Origin: Sulfitobacter sp. HGT1
GTDB taxonomy: Bacteria > Pseudomonadota > Alphaproteobacteria > Rhodobacterales > Rhodobacteraceae
Direction: 5' to 3'
Assembly (NCBI RefSeq): GCF_013282155.1
Contig: NZ_BLWI01000014.1
Location: 1-64,000 of the forward strand
Length of the DNA stretch: 64,000 nt
This document shows positions 295 through 19,153 of the stretch, in pieces (the first letter of the stretch is position 1; each line of letters opens with the position of its first letter). The notes beneath the pieces were generated by a model. The model saw only the letters and a list, made by a program, of their open reading frames with translations. It ran no database searches and was not told the DNA's origin. The translations under genes and the position numbers were made by a program.

Positions 295-1368
295 ATGCCG
301 TCAATTTCACCCTTTCACCGTTTCGAAAAACTTTTGATGGAACGTGCACAAACTTGGCCAATACCTGGCTGCAAATCCCCGGCACCAATGTCACGCTGGC
401 AAGCGGCCAGTTTGTTACAAAAAGCAATCCGCCGGGGTGATGTACCGCGCGTCAAACTCGCAACCTCGTCACTTCTGCAATCTGACCCCGCCCGGCTTTG
501 GCGCAGGCTGGGGATTATCGCTTTTGAAGACATCGGGCTGGCAAACCTGTCTCTAGTGGGACAGGTCACTCTTGCACTGCAGGGAAAAATCTTCCGCCGG
601 TCGCTAGGCGGGGAGGCTCGCGTGGCATCGGGGCTAGCGACAGACCTTGCGTTATCCTCGAAAAGTCGCGCAGCGGATGACATGCTGTGTGTCATAGTTG
701 ATCACCCCAAAAGCTCGGACATAAGGCGAAAGCTGGCTGGGATGTCGGAGGAGAGATTATTGACAGTGGTAGCTGCCTGCCAAGATATGACGACCAGATG
801 TATAGCCGCCGATATGTGTGCAGTTAATTGCACAGAGCCAAAACATCTCTTTCTAGAGAAGTTTTTGAATGCCGCTGGGGTTGGCCCGTCAATAACGTGG
901 ATGGCGCAGGAAGGTAGCAAGCGCACTGGAACATTGCTGCCGTTGTTCATGGCGTTGCTGTCCCAGCAAAATGGCGTCAACGAATTTAATCCTGACGACG
1001 AAATGCCAGAAGAGATCGATATCGCAGGCCTTCCGGGTTGGGCGCTTGATATGTTTACCCGAGAAGGCAAGGCGAGCATTCGCCATCTTTTGGCGGGTCA
1101 AAGCGAGGCCGCAAGATATCTCCGGGATAGCTTCCCAGTAGCAGGCAGAACGCGGCTACTTGGGGAGGCTGTCTTTCGGGTGGAAAGTGGGTTGCTGCGA
1201 AATCGCAGCGATGGCCCAAAGGGGCAAATGCTACGTTCGCAAATGGAGCGTGAATGCCTTGGGATAGACCTAGACCAAGCAGATCAGTTGTTGAGGCTCA
1301 CGCGATCCGCAGTCCCAGACTTAAACGAATGCCGCAAATACATCATGGGGGGACCAAAGCATGGCTGA
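295..1368 (+). CDS. RarA/MgsA C-terminal-like protein paired with integrase
   Basis: A 357-residue cytoplasmic protein of unknown function. Residues about 30-90 (SRWQAASLLQKAIRRGDV, then FEDIGLAN) resemble the C-terminal helical region of RarA/MgsA clamp-loader-like ATPases, where alanine- and arginine-rich helices precede an 'EDIGLA' turn. There is no Walker A or B motif, so it is not itself an ATPase of that class. The start is chosen on AAGGAGGA five bases upstream. Its stop overlaps the start of the downstream tyrosine recombinase by 8 bp, which implies co-translation and a role alongside recombination or element maintenance (inference). A DNA-binding accessory protein is possible. The similarity is motif-level only. 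Confidence 0.6.
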   Translation: MPSISPFHRFEKLLMERAQTWPIPGCKSPAPMSRWQAASLLQKAIRRGDVPRVKLATSSLLQSDPARLWRRLGIIAFEDIGLANLSLVGQVTLALQGKIFRRSLGGEARVASGLATDLALSSKSRAADDMLCVIVDHPKSSDIRRKLAGMSEERLLTVVAACQDMTTRCIAADMCAVNCTEPKHLFLEKFLNAAGVGPSITWMAQEGSKRTGTLLPLFMALLSQQNGVNEFNPDDEMPEEIDIAGLPGWALDMFTREGKASIRHLLAGQSEAARYLRDSFPVAGRTRLLGEAVFRVESGLLRNRSDGPKGQMLRSQMERECLGIDLDQADQLLRLTRSAVPDLNECRKYIMGGPKHG

Positions 1369-2332
1369 GGATATGATCCTAACCCGGCATAATCCTTTCT
1401 TATCCCGGGTCACAAACGGTTCAAATTGCACCACCTTGAGAGGGGATGATGCGGTTGAGCACTTCATCCGCGAAAGCCTTTCGGAGAACACACGTCAGGC
1501 CTATCGGGCTGATCTGGCCCACTTCACAGTTTGGGGCGGTACACTCCCGGCTTCACCCGAGACAGTTGCACGATACCTTGCCGAACACGCCGAAATCCTT
1601 GCCCCTGCCACTCTCTCCCGCCGTGTTGCGACCCTAAGCAAGGCTCACGCGGCAAACGGCTGGCCGAACCCCTGCCGCAAGGAGTTGGTGCGCGCGACGC
1701 TGCGAGGGATCAAGCGGGTCAAAGGCACAGCGCAAGCTCAAGCACGGCCATTGCTGCGTGAAGACCTATTCTTGGTTCTGGACGCCTTAGAGGATGACCC
1801 TCGCTCTCTCAGAGATCGCGCATTGCTGCTGATCGGCTGGGCTGGGGGCTTCAGGTCTTCAGAACTTACCGGGCTAGACATCTCAGACATCGAAGATGTG
1901 CGCGAAGGCATAATCCTGCATCTCCGCCGCTCTAAGGCGGATCAGACAGGCCAAGGCCGCAAGGTCGGTATACCTTTAGGGAGGACACGTCACTGCCCTG
2001 TGGCGGCTCTCTCTGGATGGCGGCAAGCCCTCTCAGGGCCAGGTGGCAGGGTGTTCCGTCCCGTAGACCGTCACGGCAACGTGCGAGGTTCCACGCTGAG
2101 ACCAGATGCCGTTTCGACAATTCTCCGGGATCGGCTGGCTACGGCGGGGATCGAACCTGAGGGCTACAGCGGCCACAGTCTCCGCGCGGGTATTGCCACA
2201 AGCGCCATCAAAGCTGGGGTTCCCACATACAAGGTCCGCGCACAGACAGGTCATGCGTCCGACGTGATGCTGGCCCGATATGTTCGGGATGCTGGATTGT
2301 TTGATGGGAATGCAGCCGGGGCTTTGTTGTGA
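1361..2332 (+). CDS. Tyrosine recombinase / site-specific integrase
   Basis: A 323-residue tyrosine recombinase. Residues about 30-115 form the SAM-like, core-binding N-terminal domain (NTRQAYRADLAHFTVW). The catalytic domain shows the first arginine in GGFRSSELTGL, the HxxR box in GHSLRAGIATSA, and the nucleophile in MLARYVRDA near the C-terminus, so the active site looks intact. Enzymes of this family cut and rejoin DNA through a 3'-phosphotyrosine to integrate, excise or resolve DNA. It overlaps the preceding gene by 8 bp, and a MITE-like element begins 8 bp after its stop. It may mobilise the lower-GC segment that follows, but no att repeats were identified. No directionality factor is recognisable nearby. 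Confidence 0.9.
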   Translation: MAEDMILTRHNPFLSRVTNGSNCTTLRGDDAVEHFIRESLSENTRQAYRADLAHFTVWGGTLPASPETVARYLAEHAEILAPATLSRRVATLSKAHAANGWPNPCRKELVRATLRGIKRVKGTAQAQARPLLREDLFLVLDALEDDPRSLRDRALLLIGWAGGFRSSELTGLDISDIEDVREGIILHLRRSKADQTGQGRKVGIPLGRTRHCPVAALSGWRQALSGPGGRVFRPVDRHGNVRGSTLRPDAVSTILRDRLATAGIEPEGYSGHSLRAGIATSAIKAGVPTYKVRAQTGHASDVMLARYVRDAGLFDGNAAGALL

Positions 2333-2340
2333 GTTGGGCG

Positions 2341-2508
2341 GATTGTGTTGAAAAACTCTCCTTCAGCGCATTGGGCCCAAATTTGGCAGAACAAAATTCC
2401 AAAATATGGAAATTTCGGCGGCATTCCGGGGCGCAATTAGCTCGTCGGGGAACAGGTTTCCGCATTTCAGAAATTTGCAGTTGCAGCAAAGAGTTTTTCA
2501 ACACAATC
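2341..2508. mobile_element. MITE-like element, 19-bp perfect terminal inverted repeats
   Basis: The left end (2341-2359) is GATTGTGTTGAAAAACTCT and the right end (2490-2508) is its exact reverse complement. The 168-bp unit is directly flanked by GGCG on both sides (2337-2340 and 2509-2512), consistent with a 4-bp target duplication. The interior is AT-rich and encodes no convincing protein. This is the layout of a miniature inverted-repeat element moved in trans by a transposase. It lies 8 bp after the integrase stop. The rest of the gap to the next gene (2513-2646) shows nothing I can name. Confidence 0.7.
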
Positions 2509-2646
2509 GGCGAAAACCGGACTTTCGCTGCGGTGCGCAATGTAATTCGATGAGGTTCCAAAGCAGCCATTCACAGATCTCTGATTGCAGGCGAAAAAAT
2601 ATACCTACAAAGAGCTTATTTTTTTTCAAGCACTCGCGTAAGGGTA

Positions 2647-5600
2647 GTGCCCGTATCCTCCAACCTAGTGGCAGAATTCATGTTCCCTATATCGCCAATG
2701 CCCAAAAACCTTGAAGAGAACCAAAACACTGGAGCGTTTGAAGACTTAAGAAAGCAATACAAAGGTACCTTTGCTGTTTTGGAAGATTCGGACCCGCTCG
2801 CTACTGCACTTTCCTTCGCCGCTCTTTTGCTGAATGAAAACCTCCAAAGTTCCACTTATCGGATCGAGACCTTGGTCAATTTAGCTTTGGCGCTTGGTCG
2901 CGACAAAAACAGGCTCAAACAGAAGGATTTCCGCAGACTTTATGGGGACATGGAAAATGGCATCGTCGCTAGACAAGAAGATCCAGCTGAAGATGTGTTC
3001 GTAAGTAACATCAGCACTATGCGTGGCAATTTCCTCGTACTTGAGGGGCTAAGTGAAGGAACTGGATACTTCCTGCAGGTATTCATGCAATTGGTCGACA
3101 GTCTTCCCAAAAACGAAAGCTACGATGTGATTAGGGATCCAGTCTACGCACTGTTGACCTTGTCAAATGAAGCCTGCAAACGCGCCGGTTTGTCCAGAAA
3201 CCAGCTGGGGAACGAGAGACCACAGGCAAAGCTCACACCACAAGATGCTGAACGAATACCGGAGCTGAGAAAATGTCTTACGTTTAGCTCGGCAGATCTT
3301 GATGATCTGGGTATAAAGCTCGACGACCTTGGCGAGTTTGGATTTGGTCCATCAGCAAGAGCAAAACTCCTCAAACAGAACCTTCTTCACAACGACCTCG
3401 AACGTTGGCCCGTAGGCCATAAGGACAGCAATACTTTCCTGCTGCTTCCGACCGCAGTCAGCGGCAGCATTCGTCGCTTTGTTTTCGAGATGATTGTCAA
3501 AGCCTACGGGCTGGACACCTTCTTAAAGGCTTTAGCCTATGAGTACTCAAAGCGACTGAACTTGATACCTTTTCTCGGAGAATTTGGTCGAATTCAGCTA
3601 GAATTTACGCCCGCCGGTGACACTCTCATGGCAAGTGTGTTCCGCTGGGTGGACGACGGGAGAGCGCTTCACATTCTGTTTTTCATGGACAATCTGCGGG
3701 GCTTTGAAGAAACAGGGTTTGGCGGGTGGCACAAGGACCAGCCCAATACATCCGCCGCGATCCTCGATCACATTAAACTGGCTAAAGCGAAAGCTGAAGA
3801 AAGCGATGACTTCAAATCTGGCATAAGCATAATAGTAAACTGTGGCGTCGGGCGAGGCATCAATCTTGCTGCCAGCGTGTTCGAAGTTGAAGACTGGGAC
3901 GTAGACTTTCTCTCTGTGCACGACTTTGAAGTTCTTTCTAACAAGCACAGCTTTTCACCGATTTCACTATGGCGGCTGAAGGATGCTGAACGGCAGGTTT
4001 CGGGAGCTGGAATTGAACTCTTCAATATCAATGGTCTGCTCAATCTGATTGCTTGGCGAGAGCAACTTGGCGGCCACTTGGTACCACACAATCAGGTTCC
4101 AGATACCTTCGGGGACGGAGGTGCCGGTTTGATCATGGTCGATCAAAACGCGCTGCGCACATTGCGACATCAATCGAAACAAGAAGCCGATGTTCATTCT
4201 GCCTGCAAGCTTGATGGCAGTTGGACTTTGGTCAGACGCACGTCCAGCTCGTTGAGCGAAGAAGATCGATCCATTTCTCTATATGCAGACATGCTAAGCA
4301 ACGAGAGCCTTCCGGCGTTACTGTTCGAGGATCGGGGCATCGAATGGTGGACCCAGGTAAGTGGTGTTGAGGGTAGTCCGAGAGATGCGATCTCTGAACG
4401 TTGGAGGATGCTGTCTACATGGTTGCCTCGAATTGCCCAAGCATTTGGTGCACTTGAACAACAGCACAAACCGCCAAATCGATTGCAAATCAATGCAACC
4501 TTTGATGGTGCAATGGCTGGCCTGGCAGAGCAGCCTAAGCCGTTCTCAGAAAATGAGCTGAGGGAAACTCTTTCAGTAAGTGCTCAAACCGGCGAAGCGG
4601 TGGTAACCGTGAAAGCCAATCGCAGATTTGAAGATGCCTTCTTCAATGAAGATAATGTTGCCGAAAGAGCGTGGGTGAGGGCAGCTTGCCTCGGAGTTTC
4701 TCAACTCGCAGCTGAGCCGTTGGCCGCAGAGCAATTTGAGGATCTGCTAAACTTAATTGTTCCGAACAACCGTGTGCGTCAAACGCACGCCTTCCCTGCA
4801 GCGAGTTTTCGCGATTTTGTTCATCACAAACTCCCTCGAAAACCAGTATTCATAAACGATGCCGACACGAGCACTCTCAAGCTTTTCCTTGGTTGGAAGG
4901 TCCGTGACCGCAAACTGGGCGCAAACATACAAGGAAAAGCAGAGTGTACGGCCTATCTGCGCCAATTGGTTGAACTTCTCGAGAATAAGCTGATCGATTT
5001 CTTAAGAAAATTTGAGAAGAAGTCTGTTTTGCAAAGGCTTATCACTAACCATGAAGCTGCAATGTGCGACCAAGAGACTTGGAAAAGAACCGCCGCTGCT
5101 GTCAGTGCATTGCACGAGGAGAAAGGACGCGCATTGGAGGAAATACTCAAGCACCAGTCGAAGCTTAACGCAGTTTTTCAGTCATCGCGTGTTCTAGTCG
5201 AAGTTGCTAACTGCGTTTGCAGCCTCGACGATGGCGATGCGTTTGGCGAATTTGATCTCGCACAGTCCATGGCGATGATGATTGAGATTATTGAATTTGG
5301 GGGATGGTCTGACGCAATCCACTACGGCGCGATGGAACCAACACTTGTGGTGGCGGCGCTCGGCGATGTCCTAGCTAACCATGACTTTTTCGAGGAGGTT
5401 GTCGTCCCGTTCGGTCAAGCTGGTATGAAATCCAGAGTTGAGCGAAGCATTCAAGGTTATGGGGATCACTTTTTGGCACCTAAGGAAAAGACTGGCGAGC
5501 TGGATAAGGGGTTTTTGGCCGAAAAAGAACAGTTTTCAAAGGCATGGGAATGCGAGCTTGGCTTCCCTATTGAAGCACATGGAGCTTTTGTAGTTGCTTG

Positions 5601-6477
5601 TGAAGAGGTGGGGCTGGCCGAGGAAAAAGCGTGCTTTGTGGTTCGAAAGTCGGAGCTTACCCGGAGGGTTCTGGACCTAAAACCGGAACTGGAGCAGCAT
5701 TTGGATCAAATTTTTCATGAACTCTCTCTGCTCCCAAGATCAGACTGGAGGATCGCTCCTGAAGGATTTACTGATCTTGATCGCCAACCTTGGAAGTTCC
5801 GTCGTTTGCTAAGTGTCCTTCGGCGTCCATTGATCCAACTTAGCGACGTAGAGGATCCTGAAATCTATCTTTGGCCAGGGATGGTCGGCGATGGTGGTGA
5901 GTATACTTTCGTTCGGTACTGGGAAGCCGAATTCCGCGAAATTCAAATTCGCACGAAGGAAATGCTGCGTTGGAATGGTTCGGTGAAGGATAAAAGTAGC
6001 TTCAACGATCAAGTGGCTGGAAGGCTCCGTGAATTGGGTTGGACAGCAAAGTCAGATGTTGGCGTTACACAGATTTTGGGTCGATCTGAGGATGAGAAGT
6101 TCGGCAACATCAAGCGACTAGGTGACGTGGATGTTCTTGCATGGGACGAACAAAGTCGCCGCGTGATTGCTATTGAGTGCAAGGATCTTATGTACCGAAA
6201 GACGCCTGGAGAAATCGCCGAACAGTTGTCAAGTTTTCGAGGTGAATTGGATGCAAAGGGCAAACCGGACCTCTTGCTTAAGCATCTCAACCGAGCATCC
6301 GCCCTGCGTGGAAATCTTGATGAACTAAGAAAATTTACAGGGATATCCGATCCTACTTTGGAGGATTGCCTCCTTTTTAGCGGTCAGGTCCCCATGGGGT
6401 ACGCAAAAGAGGGTATCCGCAGCAAGGCAAATATGTTGCTTTTCGATCAAATAGGCACCCTAGCTTTGAACACATAA
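2647..6477 (+). CDS. Large protein with C-terminal PD-(D/E)XK-like nuclease domain
   Basis: A 1276-residue protein that I do not recognise as a named family. About 1100 residues, mixed helix and strand without membrane segments, precede a C-terminal restriction-endonuclease-like fold. In this fold GDVDVLAWD supplies D1160/D1162, and VIAIECKDL supplies the E1177-x-K1179 pair, with the spacing typical of PD-(D/E)XK nucleases. I infer a DNA-cutting effector, plausibly in anti-phage defence given the integrase and MITE upstream and a PLD-fold protein downstream. The base composition is clearly more AT-rich than the core genes. The start is uncertain: GTG 2647 gives the longest frame, ATG 2680 and 2698 are alternatives, and none has a strong ribosome site. 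A long coiled or repeat region is not obvious. Confidence 0.75.
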   Translation: MPVSSNLVAEFMFPISPMPKNLEENQNTGAFEDLRKQYKGTFAVLEDSDPLATALSFAALLLNENLQSSTYRIETLVNLALALGRDKNRLKQKDFRRLYGDMENGIVARQEDPAEDVFVSNISTMRGNFLVLEGLSEGTGYFLQVFMQLVDSLPKNESYDVIRDPVYALLTLSNEACKRAGLSRNQLGNERPQAKLTPQDAERIPELRKCLTFSSADLDDLGIKLDDLGEFGFGPSARAKLLKQNLLHNDLERWPVGHKDSNTFLLLPTAVSGSIRRFVFEMIVKAYGLDTFLKALAYEYSKRLNLIPFLGEFGRIQLEFTPAGDTLMASVFRWVDDGRALHILFFMDNLRGFEETGFGGWHKDQPNTSAAILDHIKLAKAKAEESDDFKSGISIIVNCGVGRGINLAASVFEVEDWDVDFLSVHDFEVLSNKHSFSPISLWRLKDAERQVSGAGIELFNINGLLNLIAWREQLGGHLVPHNQVPDTFGDGGAGLIMVDQNALRTLRHQSKQEADVHSACKLDGSWTLVRRTSSSLSEEDRSISLYADMLSNESLPALLFEDRGIEWWTQVSGVEGSPRDAISERWRMLSTWLPRIAQAFGALEQQHKPPNRLQINATFDGAMAGLAEQPKPFSENELRETLSVSAQTGEAVVTVKANRRFEDAFFNEDNVAERAWVRAACLGVSQLAAEPLAAEQFEDLLNLIVPNNRVRQTHAFPAASFRDFVHHKLPRKPVFINDADTSTLKLFLGWKVRDRKLGANIQGKAECTAYLRQLVELLENKLIDFLRKFEKKSVLQRLITNHEAAMCDQETWKRTAAAVSALHEEKGRALEEILKHQSKLNAVFQSSRVLVEVANCVCSLDDGDAFGEFDLAQSMAMMIEIIEFGGWSDAIHYGAMEPTLVVAALGDVLANHDFFEEVVVPFGQAGMKSRVERSIQGYGDHFLAPKEKTGELDKGFLAEKEQFSKAWECELGFPIEAHGAFVVACEEVGLAEEKACFVVRKSELTRRVLDLKPELEQHLDQIFHELSLLPRSDWRIAPEGFTDLDRQPWKFRRLLSVLRRPLIQLSDVEDPEIYLWPGMVGDGGEYTFVRYWEAEFREIQIRTKEMLRWNGSVKDKSSFNDQVAGRLRELGWTAKSDVGVTQILGRSEDEKFGNIKRLGDVDVLAWDEQSRRVIAIECKDLMYRKTPGEIAEQLSSFRGELDAKGKPDLLLKHLNRASALRGNLDELRKFTGISDPTLEDCLLFSGQVPMGYAKEGIRSKANMLLFDQIGTLALNT

Positions 6478-6497: not shown

Positions 6498-6845
6498 ATG
6501 ACTGAAAAAACTATTCTGGACTACTTCGGAACCGTTGACCGGCCCCAACGTCTTTATTGTGGCCTTTGCGAAAGACTGATGCACCTCGACTTCGTGCACT
6601 TGCAAGAGCGCACAAGGGCCAATTTCGAGGCCGCTGTCAACTCATCCAAACATTTTGCATACTCATCCTCCGCTGTCCCACAGCAGCCGCGTCCTCGCTG
6701 CCCTCATTCGCATTTTGAAAATCCTACACAAATGACCAAGGTCCGGTTTGACGGGGCGTGCAGCAGCATCCAACGCGACACTTGGACGGTCGGCTCAGGT
6801 CAGTCAGAACAAATAACCACTGATATGAGGTCAACATGCAACTGA
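6498..6845 (+). CDS. Small hypothetical protein with CxxC motif (doubtful)
   Basis: A 115-residue frame starting at ATG 6498 (GTG 6486 is an alternative), 20 bp after the large nuclease gene. The N-terminal half looks protein-like and contains YCGLCERLMH, a possible half zinc site. The C-terminal half, after about residue 55, is compositionally odd and may be non-coding read-through of a broken gene. Its last 10 bp overlap the start of the PLD-fold gene. It could be a coupled small partner protein or a decayed remnant; no function is assigned. Confidence 0.3.
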   Translation: MTEKTILDYFGTVDRPQRLYCGLCERLMHLDFVHLQERTRANFEAAVNSSKHFAYSSSAVPQQPRPRCPHSHFENPTQMTKVRFDGACSSIQRDTWTVGSGQSEQITTDMRSTCN

Positions 6846-8182
6846 TGATGGGCGGCATTAACGGAAACTATCTCACCAACATCACGCTGAATGCGGCGAC
6901 TGAGACGCAAGAGGTTTTGGCAGCGGTCGCATACGTTACGGAAATGGACCTTCTGTTCGACTGGTGTTGGAACAACGGTATCCCGCTTAAGTTTTACGGT
7001 CGCCTCGACGAAGGCGTTCCAGTCAAACCTTCCATCCTATCGACGTTCCTGGATCGGAAATCTGCAAGATTCCAATGCCGTCTCGTTCAGCATCACCATG
7101 CAAAGGTAATCTGGTGGCGCGAATACGGCCTGTATATCGGCTCTGCGAACCTCACCGCGAGTGCCTGGTACAAGAACGTCGAAGCAGGGTGCTTCTTTCC
7201 GGAAGCAGAAATCACCGACGAGATGGCGGACGATATACTTGAACTCTTCAACGTGCTCGATCGGAACTCGACGCCGCTGACGGAGGAGTTGCTCGCCGTC
7301 ATGCTGAAGCGTGCAAAGCAGATAGCCAGCTCGAAGCCGCCTTCTGAGGAGTTCTGGAATAGCCCCAGTTTCAACAAATGGTCGGGGCTCGTTCAAACCG
7401 GGAAGAAAAAGGCCACGGACCGCCGACGCGCCGCATTTCTGGAGGAGTGGCATTCAACGCTTCAACAGCTTCGTGACATCGGAAATCTTGTGAGCAAGCC
7501 TGAGAACAGACCTTCATGGGTCGACGCGGATGCGCCAGCCGGTGCTCAAGGCGACCAATTCCTACATGCACATTATTACCAACGCACCTTTGATGGACGC
7601 AGAGCACTCTATACCGAGCATTTCGAACGGAACAGGAAGAACCCTGATACTGCGGTCGCCGAAGCCATAAGCTGGTGGCGTAGCCTCTCAAAAGCTCCTT
7701 GGGAAGAAGACGTAATGTTGAATTCTACCGCCCCTATGCTTCGGGAGGCGCTCACTGCCGAGGCCATCGACGAAATGGACTATAGCGATTTTCGTGAGGT
7801 CTGCATGGGCATACATTCCATCAAGGATTACGCCCGACGAGTGGCCAACAAAGCTGTCGGTCTTCGAGAGGACGGGACAAAGTACACGATACCAGAAAAG
7901 GTCGACGCGCTCTCGAAACGGATTTGGGGCGACAAGTCCGCAGGCGGCAACGACGTTAAGCAGCTCCTGAACTTCATCCTATATAGCGGTGCAGAGGCGC
8001 AATTGCCGGAGCGCCTCTGGACCGCTGTTCATGACCCGAAATGGAAAATCGAAGGCCTCGGAATCAGCGCTTTGGGCGAACTCGTCGGTTGGGCACTACC
8101 GGATCGTTTCCCACCCCGGAACGGACGAACATCGAAATCTCTTATGTCTTTGGGCTATGACGCCACAGTCCACGTTAGATGA
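6836..8182 (+). CDS. Phospholipase-D-fold (PLDc) nuclease-like protein
   Basis: A 448-residue protein. One HxK half-site is visible, H88-A89-K90, followed by GLYIGSANLT (G102, N105), the HKD-type arrangement of PLD-superfamily nucleases, which usually need two half-sites and so act as dimers. The C-terminal end (PPRNGRTSKSLMSLGY) resembles a tail seen in various defence-associated proteins, as far as I can recall. The start is supported by TGAGGTCAAC just upstream. It is the third gene after the integrase and follows the PD-(D/E)XK protein in the same direction. The frame ends in TGA at 8180-8182, but the next 33 codons in frame stay open and look amphipathic, so the gene may be truncated by a nonsense change. 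Confidence 0.75.
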   Translation: MQLMMGGINGNYLTNITLNAATETQEVLAAVAYVTEMDLLFDWCWNNGIPLKFYGRLDEGVPVKPSILSTFLDRKSARFQCRLVQHHHAKVIWWREYGLYIGSANLTASAWYKNVEAGCFFPEAEITDEMADDILELFNVLDRNSTPLTEELLAVMLKRAKQIASSKPPSEEFWNSPSFNKWSGLVQTGKKKATDRRRAAFLEEWHSTLQQLRDIGNLVSKPENRPSWVDADAPAGAQGDQFLHAHYYQRTFDGRRALYTEHFERNRKNPDTAVAEAISWWRSLSKAPWEEDVMLNSTAPMLREALTAEAIDEMDYSDFREVCMGIHSIKDYARRVANKAVGLREDGTKYTIPEKVDALSKRIWGDKSAGGNDVKQLLNFILYSGAEAQLPERLWTAVHDPKWKIEGLGISALGELVGWALPDRFPPRNGRTSKSLMSLGYDATVHVR

Positions 8183-14538: not shown

Positions 14539-14714
14539 GCCGACCGAAACGCGCCTAAAATTTGTGCACGCGTCAAAAAAACAGCCCGATTATTGGCCGA
14601 CAGGTTCTGTTTGCCATCGCCCCCACTGCGAATCCCGCTAACCATAATCTGGTTTTTAACGCCACCGCGGAGGGGCCCATCAACATCGCATCCCATACCG
14701 ATCTGGCATCACAG

Positions 14715-15518
14715 GTGCAGACCCAGCCCCGTGCGTTGGGCACGCTGCGCGTGGTCAGCAAAACCTATGGCGCTGCCTCTGTTATTGGCGATCTGTATCA
14801 ATCGGGATGCCTCAAGGCGCTGTTTCCCCGCGCGAATGCGGCAGGATTGACCGGCGTATTCCTGAACACCTCGGGCGGCATGACGGGGGGCGACCGCCTG
14901 TCGATCGACGCCGAGGCCGGTACGGGCAGCCGTCTGACATTGACCTCGCAAGCCGCCGAACGCGTCTATCTGGCCCAACCCGGCGCACCCGCACGGCTGA
15001 CCACGACCCTTAACGTCGCAAAGGATGCGCGCATTGACTGGCTGCCGCAGGAAACGATCCTGTTCAACGGGTCCGCGCTGCACCGCCGGCTGGAGGTTGA
15101 TCTGGCCCCCGATGCCACGTTCTTTGGGGTGGAACCGCTGGTCTTTGGCCGTGTATCGATGGGCGAGACCCTGACCAAGGGCAGCTTTGCCGACAACATC
15201 ACCCTTCGCCGCGATGGTGTGCCAATCTTTGCCGATGCCGTGCGCCTGTCAGGCGATATTGCAGCGCAACTATCCGGCCCGGCCACCGCACGCGGCCAGT
15301 TCGCCATGGCCAGCGTCATCTATGCCGCCACCGATGCCGAAGCGGCGCTGAACCCCCTGCGCGCGCTGCTTCCGAAAACCGCCGGGGCCAGCCTGATCCG
15401 GCCCGGCGTGCTGTATGCGCGCGTTCTTGCCCCCGACAGTTACATCCTGCGCCAGTCCTTGGTGCCGATCATTGCCCGCCTGCAGGGCGCGGCCCCACCC
15501 AAAACATGGATGCTTTGA
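14715..15518 (+). CDS. ureD: Urease accessory protein UreD
   Basis: The scaffold for nickel insertion into urease, acting with UreF and UreG. Family landmarks: [19 protein letters not shown], then [33 protein letters not shown] and [14 protein letters not shown] 14715 gives 267 residues and starts just before the conserved [10 protein letters not shown], which fits the family length. The frame stays open upstream to TTG 14562, so a longer form (318 residues) is possible. The extra segment contains an AACCA-N5-TGGTT palindrome near 14640 and looks like promoter DNA. It is the first gene of the urease operon and ends 1 bp before ureA. Confidence 0.88.
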
Positions 15519-15519
15519 C

Positions 15520-15822
15520 ATGCAGCTAACCCCCCGTGAAAAAGACAAACTCCTGATCGCCATGGCAGCCGAGGTCGCCCGCAAGCGCCTGGCCCGTGGC
15601 GTGAAACTGAACCACCCCGAAGCCATCGCCCTGATCACCGACACCGTCGTCGAAGGCGCGCGTGATGGCCGCAGTGTCGCCGACATGATGCAGGCCGGTG
15701 CCCAGGTCATCACCCGCGACCAATGCATGGAAGGCATCCCCGAGATGATCCACGACGTGCAAGTCGAAGCCACATTTCCCGACGGCACCAAGCTGGTCAC
15801 CGTCCACAATCCTATCCGCTAG
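15520..15822 (+). CDS. ureA: Urease gamma subunit
   Basis: A 100-residue structural subunit of nickel urease, which hydrolyses urea to ammonia and carbamate in the cytoplasm. Typical gamma-subunit sequence: [57 protein letters not shown] and the terminal VHNPIR. It lies immediately after ureD and 12 bp before a small membrane-protein gene. Confidence 0.97.
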
Positions 15823-15834
15823 AAAGGCCCCGAT

Positions 15835-16020
15835 ATGAAACATCTGATGATCCTGCCCGCGCTGCTTTTGGCCTCTCCTGCCCTTGCCCACCCCGGTCTG
15901 CACCTTGCACCCCACGGTGCCGAATGGATGCCGGTTTTCATGGGTCTGGCCGTGATCGGCACCGCTGCCGCCATCGCCCTGCGCGCCCGTCTCAAAGCCA
16001 AAGCGGCGGCAGGCAAATGA
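15835..16020 (+). CDS. Small His-containing membrane protein inside urease operon
   Basis: A 61-residue protein between ureA and ureB. It has an N-terminal signal-like segment ([18 protein letters not shown]), a short histidine-bearing stretch ([10 protein letters not shown]), a second hydrophobic segment ([16 protein letters not shown]) and a basic tail. Its stop overlaps the ureB start (ATGA), so it is certainly translated with the operon. The role is unknown; the histidines and location invite a nickel- or pH-related membrane function, but that is inference. Confidence 0.75.
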
Positions 16021-16322
16021 TCCCCGGCGAAGTCTTTTGCGCCGAGGGGGACATCACCCTGAACGCAGGCCGCGACGCGATCACGCTGATGGTCGCCAAC
16101 ACCGGCGACCGCCCCGTACAAGTAGGCAGCCACTATCATTTCGCCGAAACCAACCCCGCATTGGATTTCGACCGCGCCGCCGCACATGGCTGCCGTCTGG
16201 ACATCGCGGCAGGCACCGCCGTGCGTTTTGAGCCCGGCCAGCGCCGCGAGGTTCAACTGATCCCGCTGGCAGGTGATCGCAAGGTTTTCGGTTTCAACGC
16301 CGCAGTGATGGGCGCGCTTTAA
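16017..16322 (+). CDS. ureB: Urease beta subunit
   Basis: A 101-residue structural subunit that packs with UreA and UreC. It begins [19 protein letters not shown] and contains [30 protein letters not shown] and a C-terminal FGFNAAVMG, all typical of UreB. The start overlaps the stop of the small membrane-protein gene by 4 bp. A 25-bp gap with GAGGAAAGAG leads to ureC. Confidence 0.97.
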
Positions 16323-16347
16323 CGCGCAAAGAGGAAAGAGATCGACC

Positions 16348-18057
<1,710 letters not shown>

Positions 18058-18065
18058 GGCCCGAT

Positions 18066-18518
18066 ATGACCGACCTTACCCCCGCCCACACCATCAAGCG
18101 CAGCGGCCATTGGGATGATGCCCATGACTGCTGTGTGCTGACCTATGACGAACGGTTCCTGCGCCGCAAACGCCTGCTGACCGCCCGTAACCAAGGGTTC
18201 CTTGTCGATCTGCCGCATACGGAATCGCTGAACCACGGGGATGCGTTCCAACTGGAAGACGGCAAACTGATCGAGGTCATCGCGGCCGAGGAAGCCTTGC
18301 TAGAGATCACCGGCGACGATCTGGTGCGGCTGGCGTGGCATATCGGGAACCGTCATTGCCCCTGTCAGGTCGAACCGACACGTCTGCTGATCCAGAACGA
18401 CCACGTGATCCGCGACATGCTGGGCAAGCTGGGCGCGACCCTGCGCGATGTGTCGGAACCCTTCATTCCCGAAGGCGGCGCCTATGGCCACGGGCGCACC
18501 CACAGCCACGCGCATTGA
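18066..18518 (+). CDS. ureE: Urease accessory protein UreE (nickel chaperone)
   Basis: A 150-residue nickel metallochaperone that delivers Ni to the UreDFG complex. It shows the UreE core (LTYDERFLRRKRLLT, NHGDAFQLEDG, LAWHIGNRHCPCQVEP, DHVIRDMLGKLGA) and ends in a short histidine-rich tail (HGRTHSHAH), modest compared with the long His tails of some UreE proteins. It sits between ureC and ureF, whose start overlaps its stop by 1 bp. Confidence 0.96.
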   Translation: MTDLTPAHTIKRSGHWDDAHDCCVLTYDERFLRRKRLLTARNQGFLVDLPHTESLNHGDAFQLEDGKLIEVIAAEEALLEITGDDLVRLAWHIGNRHCPCQVEPTRLLIQNDHVIRDMLGKLGATLRDVSEPFIPEGGAYGHGRTHSHAH

Positions 18519-19153
18519 TGCAGACACAGGCGCTGATAACGCTGGCCCAATGGCTGTCGCCCAGTTTTCCCATTGGCGCGTTCAGCTATAGCCACGGGCT
18601 GGAAATGGCCGTGCATGATGGCACGATCCATGAGGCCACGTCCCTGCAAGCGTGGCTTGGCGGCATTATCACCCACGGCGCTGGCCGGACCGACGCGATC
18701 CTGCTTGGCGCTGGCTACCGTGGCGAAGGGGTGAAGGACGTTGATGCGCTGGCGCGTGCCTTGGCACCGTCATCAGAACGGTTGACTGAAACCGCACAAC
18801 AGGGCGCTGCCTTTGTGCGGGTGGTCAATGACGTCTGGGGGCATGACCTGCCTGACCTGACATTGCCCGTGGCATTCGGTGCGGCCTGTGCGGCGCAAGG
18901 ATTGCCGTTGCAAGACGCGGCCCAGATGTTCCTGCATGCTTTCGTCAGCGCGCTGGTCTCTGCCGCGATCCGGGCCGTGCCTTTGGGGCAAACCGACGGG
19001 CAACGTGTGATCACCGCCCTTGCCCCCCTGTGCCAGCAGACCGTGGAAACCGCGCTGACCCAGACCATTGACGACATCGGCAGCGCCTGTTTTCTGGCCG
19101 ACATTGCCTCGATGCAACATGAAACGCTTTACTCAAGGATGTTCCAGACATGA
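18518..19153 (+). CDS. ureF: Urease accessory protein UreF
   Basis: A 211-residue helical protein that regulates the UreG GTPase during nickel insertion. Characteristic segments: [21 protein letters not shown] at the N-terminus and [13 protein letters not shown] in the C-terminal half, ending in the usual hydrophobic cap. The start ATG 18518 overlaps the ureE stop (TGATG), and a longer in-frame start would lie inside ureE. Its stop overlaps the ureG start by 4 bp. Confidence 0.95.

Follow-up and report, generated by a model that had tools for sequence, protein, structure and literature searches.

A perfect inverted repeat lying directly behind an integrase gene raises the question of whether it belongs to the integrase or is a mobile element in its own right and, if mobile, what moved it. 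The repeat occurs near the start of a 64,000-nucleotide stretch of DNA from Sulfitobacter sp. HGT1, the whole of which we analysed and refer to as the window. The original prediction, made from the letters alone, had read it as a MITE-like element that would depend on a related element elsewhere in the genome. Our analysis indicates that the feature is very probably an IS1182-family MITE of 168 bp, moved in trans by the IS1182-type transposase of an insertion sequence (IS) with matching ends. The features concerned are as follows.

1361..2332, plus strand: tyrosine recombinase gene (PF00589), a neighbour outside the element
2329..2520, no strand: insertion site, joined flanks GTGAGTTG[GGCG]AAAACCGG, which fits the clan's 20-bp palindromic target
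2337..2340, no strand: left target duplication copy GGCG, 4 bp, from the sequence
2341..2359, plus strand: left terminal inverted repeat, 19 bp, the first 18 bp of which also cap IS1182-family ISs
2360..2489, no strand: non-coding interior, 130 bp, common to the 168-bp family
2490..2508, minus strand: right terminal inverted repeat, 19 bp, the reverse complement of the left arm
2509..2512, no strand: right target duplication copy GGCG, 4 bp, from the sequence

The predicted anatomy was borne out in full. The arms of the 168-bp unit at 2341-2508 are exact reverse complements across 19 bp, and GGCG brackets the unit on both sides. The integrase stop ends at 2332, four bases before the left GGCG, and the element starts eight bases past that stop. 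As had been anticipated, the unit is too short for a transposase: no open reading frame of at least 60 amino acids is contained in it, and the listed frames cross its borders. With the flanks included, an inverted-repeat search returns 22-nt arms at 95% identity. When the 64 kb were scanned for arms of at least 16 nt lying up to 600 bases apart, this unit alone had separate arms, the other two of the three pairs being overlapping palindromes. Its G+C content is 45%, against 59% for the window. The element thus combines the usual attributes of a MITE, being short with terminal inverted repeats, devoid of a transposase gene, flanked by a target duplication and capped by ends common to autonomous ISs. 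Dispersed copies, a further attribute, are found across the group, with one copy in its own genome.

That genome (3.8 Mb in 34 contigs, estimated to be 99.96% complete) holds the 18-bp end, allowing up to three mismatches, at the element's own two ends and at two further single places. Matches to the 168-bp element at E ≤0.001 occur in 13 of 98 genomes searched, its own included, all of the same genus. In six of these besides its own (G003, G009, G011, G023, G025 and G051, with several in G023) the matches span at least 154 bases, and four Sulfitobacter plasmid records also carry the element. Clustering by interior yields a family of 21 distinct members including the window copy, 18 of them exactly 168 bp long, with mean identities to the window copy of 0.89 in the terminal repeats and 0.72 in the interior. 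Fifteen members come from the same genus (13 from the searched genomes and two from named plasmids); the remainder come from Celeribacter and Roseovarius records, two further genomes of Rhodobacteraceae (three copies) and one viral contig.

Conservation within the family is uneven, which bears on whether the host may have put the element to use, for example as an mRNA-stabilizing hairpin for which two conserved inner blocks were kept. When identity to the window copy is taken in 12-bp bins, two blocks stand out, one at about 2377-2400 and one at about 2473-2496 that extends into the right repeat: element positions 37-60 and 133-156 reach 0.81-0.92, the last of these bins (ending at 156) taking in part of the right repeat, and other inner bins lie at 0.57-0.77. 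However, conservation in a spreading family can stem equally from common descent or from binding of transposase or host factors, and the four plasmid copies that were looked up are spread over three loci and do not share their neighbouring genes. We regard co-option by the host as very improbable.

Still less probable is that the inverted repeat belongs to the integrase unit, as an attachment or recombination site, a terminator or an RNA element on the integrase transcript. Its closeness to the integrase stop invites this idea, and its RNA has a good predicted fold (-61 kcal/mol, z -4.4), with the terminal repeats forming the outer stem. Against it, three integrase homologues (L184, L185 and L189) have no such end within four mismatches in the 3.2-4.0 kb examined, and none of the four plasmid copies whose neighbours were looked up adjoins an integrase, which argues against an integrase-linked site. 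An Rfam search of 1300-3000 gave no match up to E 1, and a simple scan of the plus strand over 2200-2800 found no intrinsic terminator; we rejected a structured RNA and an integrase terminator on these grounds. A chance origin can be dismissed outright, as base composition alone would give the window about 0.0002 pairs of perfect 19-bp arms at distances up to 600 bp (about 1e-6 with the 4-bp duplication added), yet 20 other copies of the family exist.

The genes around the element offer observations of their own. The recombinase gene is overlapped by that of a 357-amino-acid protein (the two lying within 295-2332) whose match to MgsA_C (PF12002) is weak and falls below the cut-off. By eye, the recombinase homologues L184, L185 and L189 seem to have a partner-like gene upstream, with unrelated DNA downstream, and the recombinase and its overlapping partner possibly form a mobile two-gene module. 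On the other side, 2647-6477 adjoins the element and encodes a 1,276-amino-acid homologue of the anti-phage protein Upx, scoring 822 bits against NF042954 (below the cut-off of 1900) and 758 bits against the PADLOC Upx model. Downstream of it, 6836-8182 encodes a 448-amino-acid protein that has a PLD-like domain and matches DrmC weakly. Urease genes, with matches to UreD, urease alpha and UreF, lie at 14562-19153.

The reading of the repeat as a MITE points to a source of transposase, and the ends identify a candidate. A scan for the 18-bp end, with one genome per species and at least 120 stretches, followed by pairing of the ends, gave short elements together with elements of about 1.5-1.6 kb. 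A matching end on both sides (at most four mismatches per end and seven in all) is present in 41 distinct elements of IS size, 1505-1617 bp long, and IS1182 elements so capped occur both within the genus and outside it. Three transposases tested, all from such long elements, carry DUF772 and DDE_Tnp_1 domains and score 397.8, 396.8 and 406.5 bits against the IS1182 model NF033551, whose curated cut-off is 270. Transposases of this kind were found at E ≤1e-100 in 12 of 60 genomes, all 12 in the same genus, which accounts for 36 of the 60. A search of the element's own genome at E 1e-100 found no intact IS1182 transposase, and the sole trace there is a 97-residue fragment with 65% identity. Judged by its ends, the putative helper is an IS1182-family IS, not found in intact form in this genome. 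An internal-deletion derivative of such an IS was also considered and rejected, since the BLASTN comparison of the MITE interior with the 41 IS-sized elements returned one 19-nt match at E 0.07, which is chance level.

The original prediction is thus upheld as to the MITE, now placed in the IS1182 family, and is not borne out as to a related helper in the same genome, where one copy of the element and only the transposase fragment were found. It had named a single copy genome-wide, no IS with matching ends and no empty site in relatives as findings against a MITE. The first two of these three describe the element's own genome, and the MITE reading survives because relatives carry further copies, matching-end IS1182 elements and, for a plasmid copy, likely empty sites. 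As the single copy in a genome with only a fragment of an IS1182 transposase, the window copy looks stranded.

A firmer tie to the IS1182 transposase comes from the insertion sites. Among 190 distinct MITE and IS sites, 118 have a 4-bp duplication, 13 a 5-bp and one a 3-bp duplication, and 58 have none; shuffling the right flanks leaves a mean of 21.7 sites with a 4-bp duplication. Decay or mispaired ends could explain the 58 sites without a duplication of at least 3 bp. Duplications of 5 bp in place of 4 bp are seen at the flanks of L362, L363 and L368, for example. GGCG/CGCC, the duplication found in the window, is the second commonest 4-bp duplication in the clan (27 of 118), and GGCC, CGCC, AGCC and GACC, with strands pooled, together make up 103 of the 118.

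Around the duplications we found a 20-bp palindromic target consensus, CCGCTATG[GGCC]CAAAGCGG; 25 IS sites and 56 sites of MITEs that lie outside the largest cluster give similar consensuses. The target profiles were restricted to sites whose 4-bp duplication is exact. When the profile is built from the 25 IS sites and nothing else, 90% of 92 MITE sites rank in the top 1% of all 20-mers in the window, and the joined site of the window element itself ranks in the top 0.1%; with a profile of 117 sites that excludes it, this site, which is weakly palindromic, ranks in the top 0.04%. The symmetry is confined to the consensus, as covariance between the two halves of the dyad was not above that of shuffles. 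Judging from these profiles, the shared target is a better tie between the MITEs, the window copy included, and the IS1182 transposase than the ends alone. Palindrome targeting by some IS1182 members is already in print (PMC5678879, citing Siguier et al.), and this 20-bp consensus was not met in the limited literature that we searched.

Some elements abut one another 4 bp apart with one target copy in common (L007/L161, L011, L088, L103 and L193). These are five junctions among 196 distinct insertions at which a second element starts exactly 4 bp off, and no other spacing from 0 to 8 bp was seen between abutting elements in that set. Four of the five involve the 168-bp family. The neighbour is IS-sized in L007/L161, L088 and L103 and a second copy of the 168-bp family in L011. 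It seems that an insertion can take as its target the duplication that an earlier one created.

The suggested comparison with empty sites succeeded in part. For the window locus there was none, as neither the plasmid collection nor 198 family genomes gave a homologue that spans the site, and the integrase homologues G149, G014 and G103 have unrelated DNA downstream and no such end in the stretch examined. Likely empty sites were found for another copy. The plasmid copies of S. indolifex and SK025 lie behind a conjugative-transfer gene, and 135 plasmid records match the sequence obtained by joining the two flanks of the S. indolifex copy. Many of the matches listed stop at the junction; the four records chosen for comparison have matches that pass it by 7-12 bases. 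These four are without an element end in the 1.1 kb examined, and their alignment continues through the junction, where the target stands once, similarity fading soon after. They are likely, though not certain, to be empty sites of the S. indolifex copy.

We therefore favour the following course of events for the IS1182-family MITE in the window. A full IS with matching ends would provide in trans a DDE transposase of the IS1182 type, which would recognize both terminal repeats and move the element, and insertion into the GGCG-centred site four bases past the integrase stop would duplicate GGCG. As the genome yielded no intact source IS, this copy would either have come in together with the surrounding DNA segment or have transposed from a helper that was later lost, and it is probably immobile now. 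Anatomy, shared ends, shared target and related copies are direct observations, and empty sites for another copy add support less firmly. What we infer is the mobilization in trans, to which the shared target profile points indirectly, and its direction.

Beyond the 168-bp family, IS1182-ended MITEs with unrelated interiors fall into narrow length classes about 10 bp apart, at about 128, 147, 158-160, 168, 178, 188-191 and 218 bp. Across 150 distinct elements of 120-225 bp, the lengths 162-164, 171-173, 180-187, 193-198 and 200-211 are empty. Clustering of interiors by BLASTN gave 35 clusters, reduced to 30 by profile-search merging at E 0.01. The 27 clusters with a median below 240 bp have a best period of 10.0 bp with an R of 0.76, a value not reached once when a smoothed null was drawn 20,000 times, and all 30 clusters give an R of 0.73 at 10.0 bp. 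The 23 clusters below 200 bp, which include the 148-bp class as a manual addition, have their best period at 10.15 bp (R 0.74; 0 of 20,000 draws). Ends are weaker or unchecked in this 148-bp class (L348-L350) and in the long elements (268, 378 and 502). Were each size class a single ancient family, the support would shrink or disappear: P is 0.005 over 11 classes, of which two have weak ends, and collapse to eight size classes gives no support for periodicity (P about 0.21). Control lengths from 26 related ISs reach an R of up to 0.43; thus, relatedness alone gives some signal, and shared ancestry may account for part of the spacing.

An advance prediction, that new interiors would lie within 1.5 bp of 10n+8, had only moderate success on 20 plasmid regions retrieved afterwards. 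Fifteen of these hold a short element, with just two new interiors, one of 167 bp that fits and one of 170 bp that narrowly misses. Of 13 distinct elements there, one of them identical to an element already in the set, seven lie within 1.5 bp of 10n+8 and six are off by 2-3 bp, where chance would place about three in ten. We hold tentatively, and with slightly less than even confidence, that IS1182-ended MITEs survive only at helical-turn spacing, with the transposase pairing their ends over looped DNA in a fixed rotational phase.

Further searches outlined the reach of the ends. An end search across the class had a low yield (7 of 385 genomes); in 17 genomes of another family ends occurred in three, with no short pair; and in the phage collection the one match, 16 bases long and within a gene, is probably due to chance. 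A variant of the end that has C at position 5 and G at position 16 is present, exact over 17-18 bp, in 832 plasmid records, most of them from enterobacteria. A 160-bp MITE with the same ends (L358:1801-1960), on the Cupriavidus metallidurans plasmid pMOL30, adjoins a tyrosine recombinase gene, perhaps by coincidence.

In itself, the element is ordinary mobile-DNA debris that leads to a widespread and little described clan of IS1182 mini-transposons. The interest of the clan lies in its sharply defined palindromic target and, less surely, in its regular length spacing. If the length rule is true, natural sequences by themselves reveal how a transposition complex is arranged in space, and the rule would be checkable with simple length variants. 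It would then be the bacterial counterpart of the 10.2-bp length periodicity of the internal eliminated sequences of Paramecium, explained in the paper that describes it by looping of the ends in the excision complex (PMC3464196); that paper also cites length experiments with bacterial transposons. Our limited literature search found no comparable length rule for bacterial MITEs.

Compared with known systems, the MITE shares its terminal repeats, its kind of 4-bp duplication and its palindromic target with IS1182 ISs (NF033551). These differ in being 1.5-1.6 kb long with a transposase gene, and their interiors have no BLASTN match to the MITE interior above chance. IS1272, also of the IS1182 family, has palindromic targets as the clan does; it reportedly replaces a stem-loop (PMC5678879), whereas the clan described here leaves a canonical 4-bp duplication. 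In Methanosarcina acetivorans, IS1182-type MITEs (ISMac2) of 160 and 169 bp are described with terminal repeats of apparently 25-26 bp (PMC3852290); by that description they are likewise short and IS1182-related, with sizes that match two classes, and differ in their archaeal host and longer repeats.

The closest published element that we found is MITEPye1 of Paracoccus yeei, and from its published description we take the window element to be a further member of that kind. MITEPye1 is a non-coding element of 159 bp with 18-bp terminal repeats like those of the IS1182 element ISPye18 and with 4-bp direct repeats; it is intergenic, with one to three copies per chromosome and a predicted hairpin RNA, in a Rhodobacterales host (PMC11578231). 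IS1182-type terminal repeats and 4-bp direct repeats are both present in the window element, which is also non-coding and intergenic, is present in one copy, is predicted to form a hairpin RNA and resides in a Rhodobacterales genome. It differs in its 168 bp, in having no intact IS1182 found in its genome and in a family that spans several genera; the likeness is one of description. An intact IS1182 partner in the same genome does not strictly define this kind, because the MITEPye1 paper reports intact ISPye18 in two P. yeei strains and related ISs in others (PMC11578231). The published lengths of IS1182 MITEs, 159, 160 and 169 bp as given in these descriptions, fall into the length classes of the clan described here.
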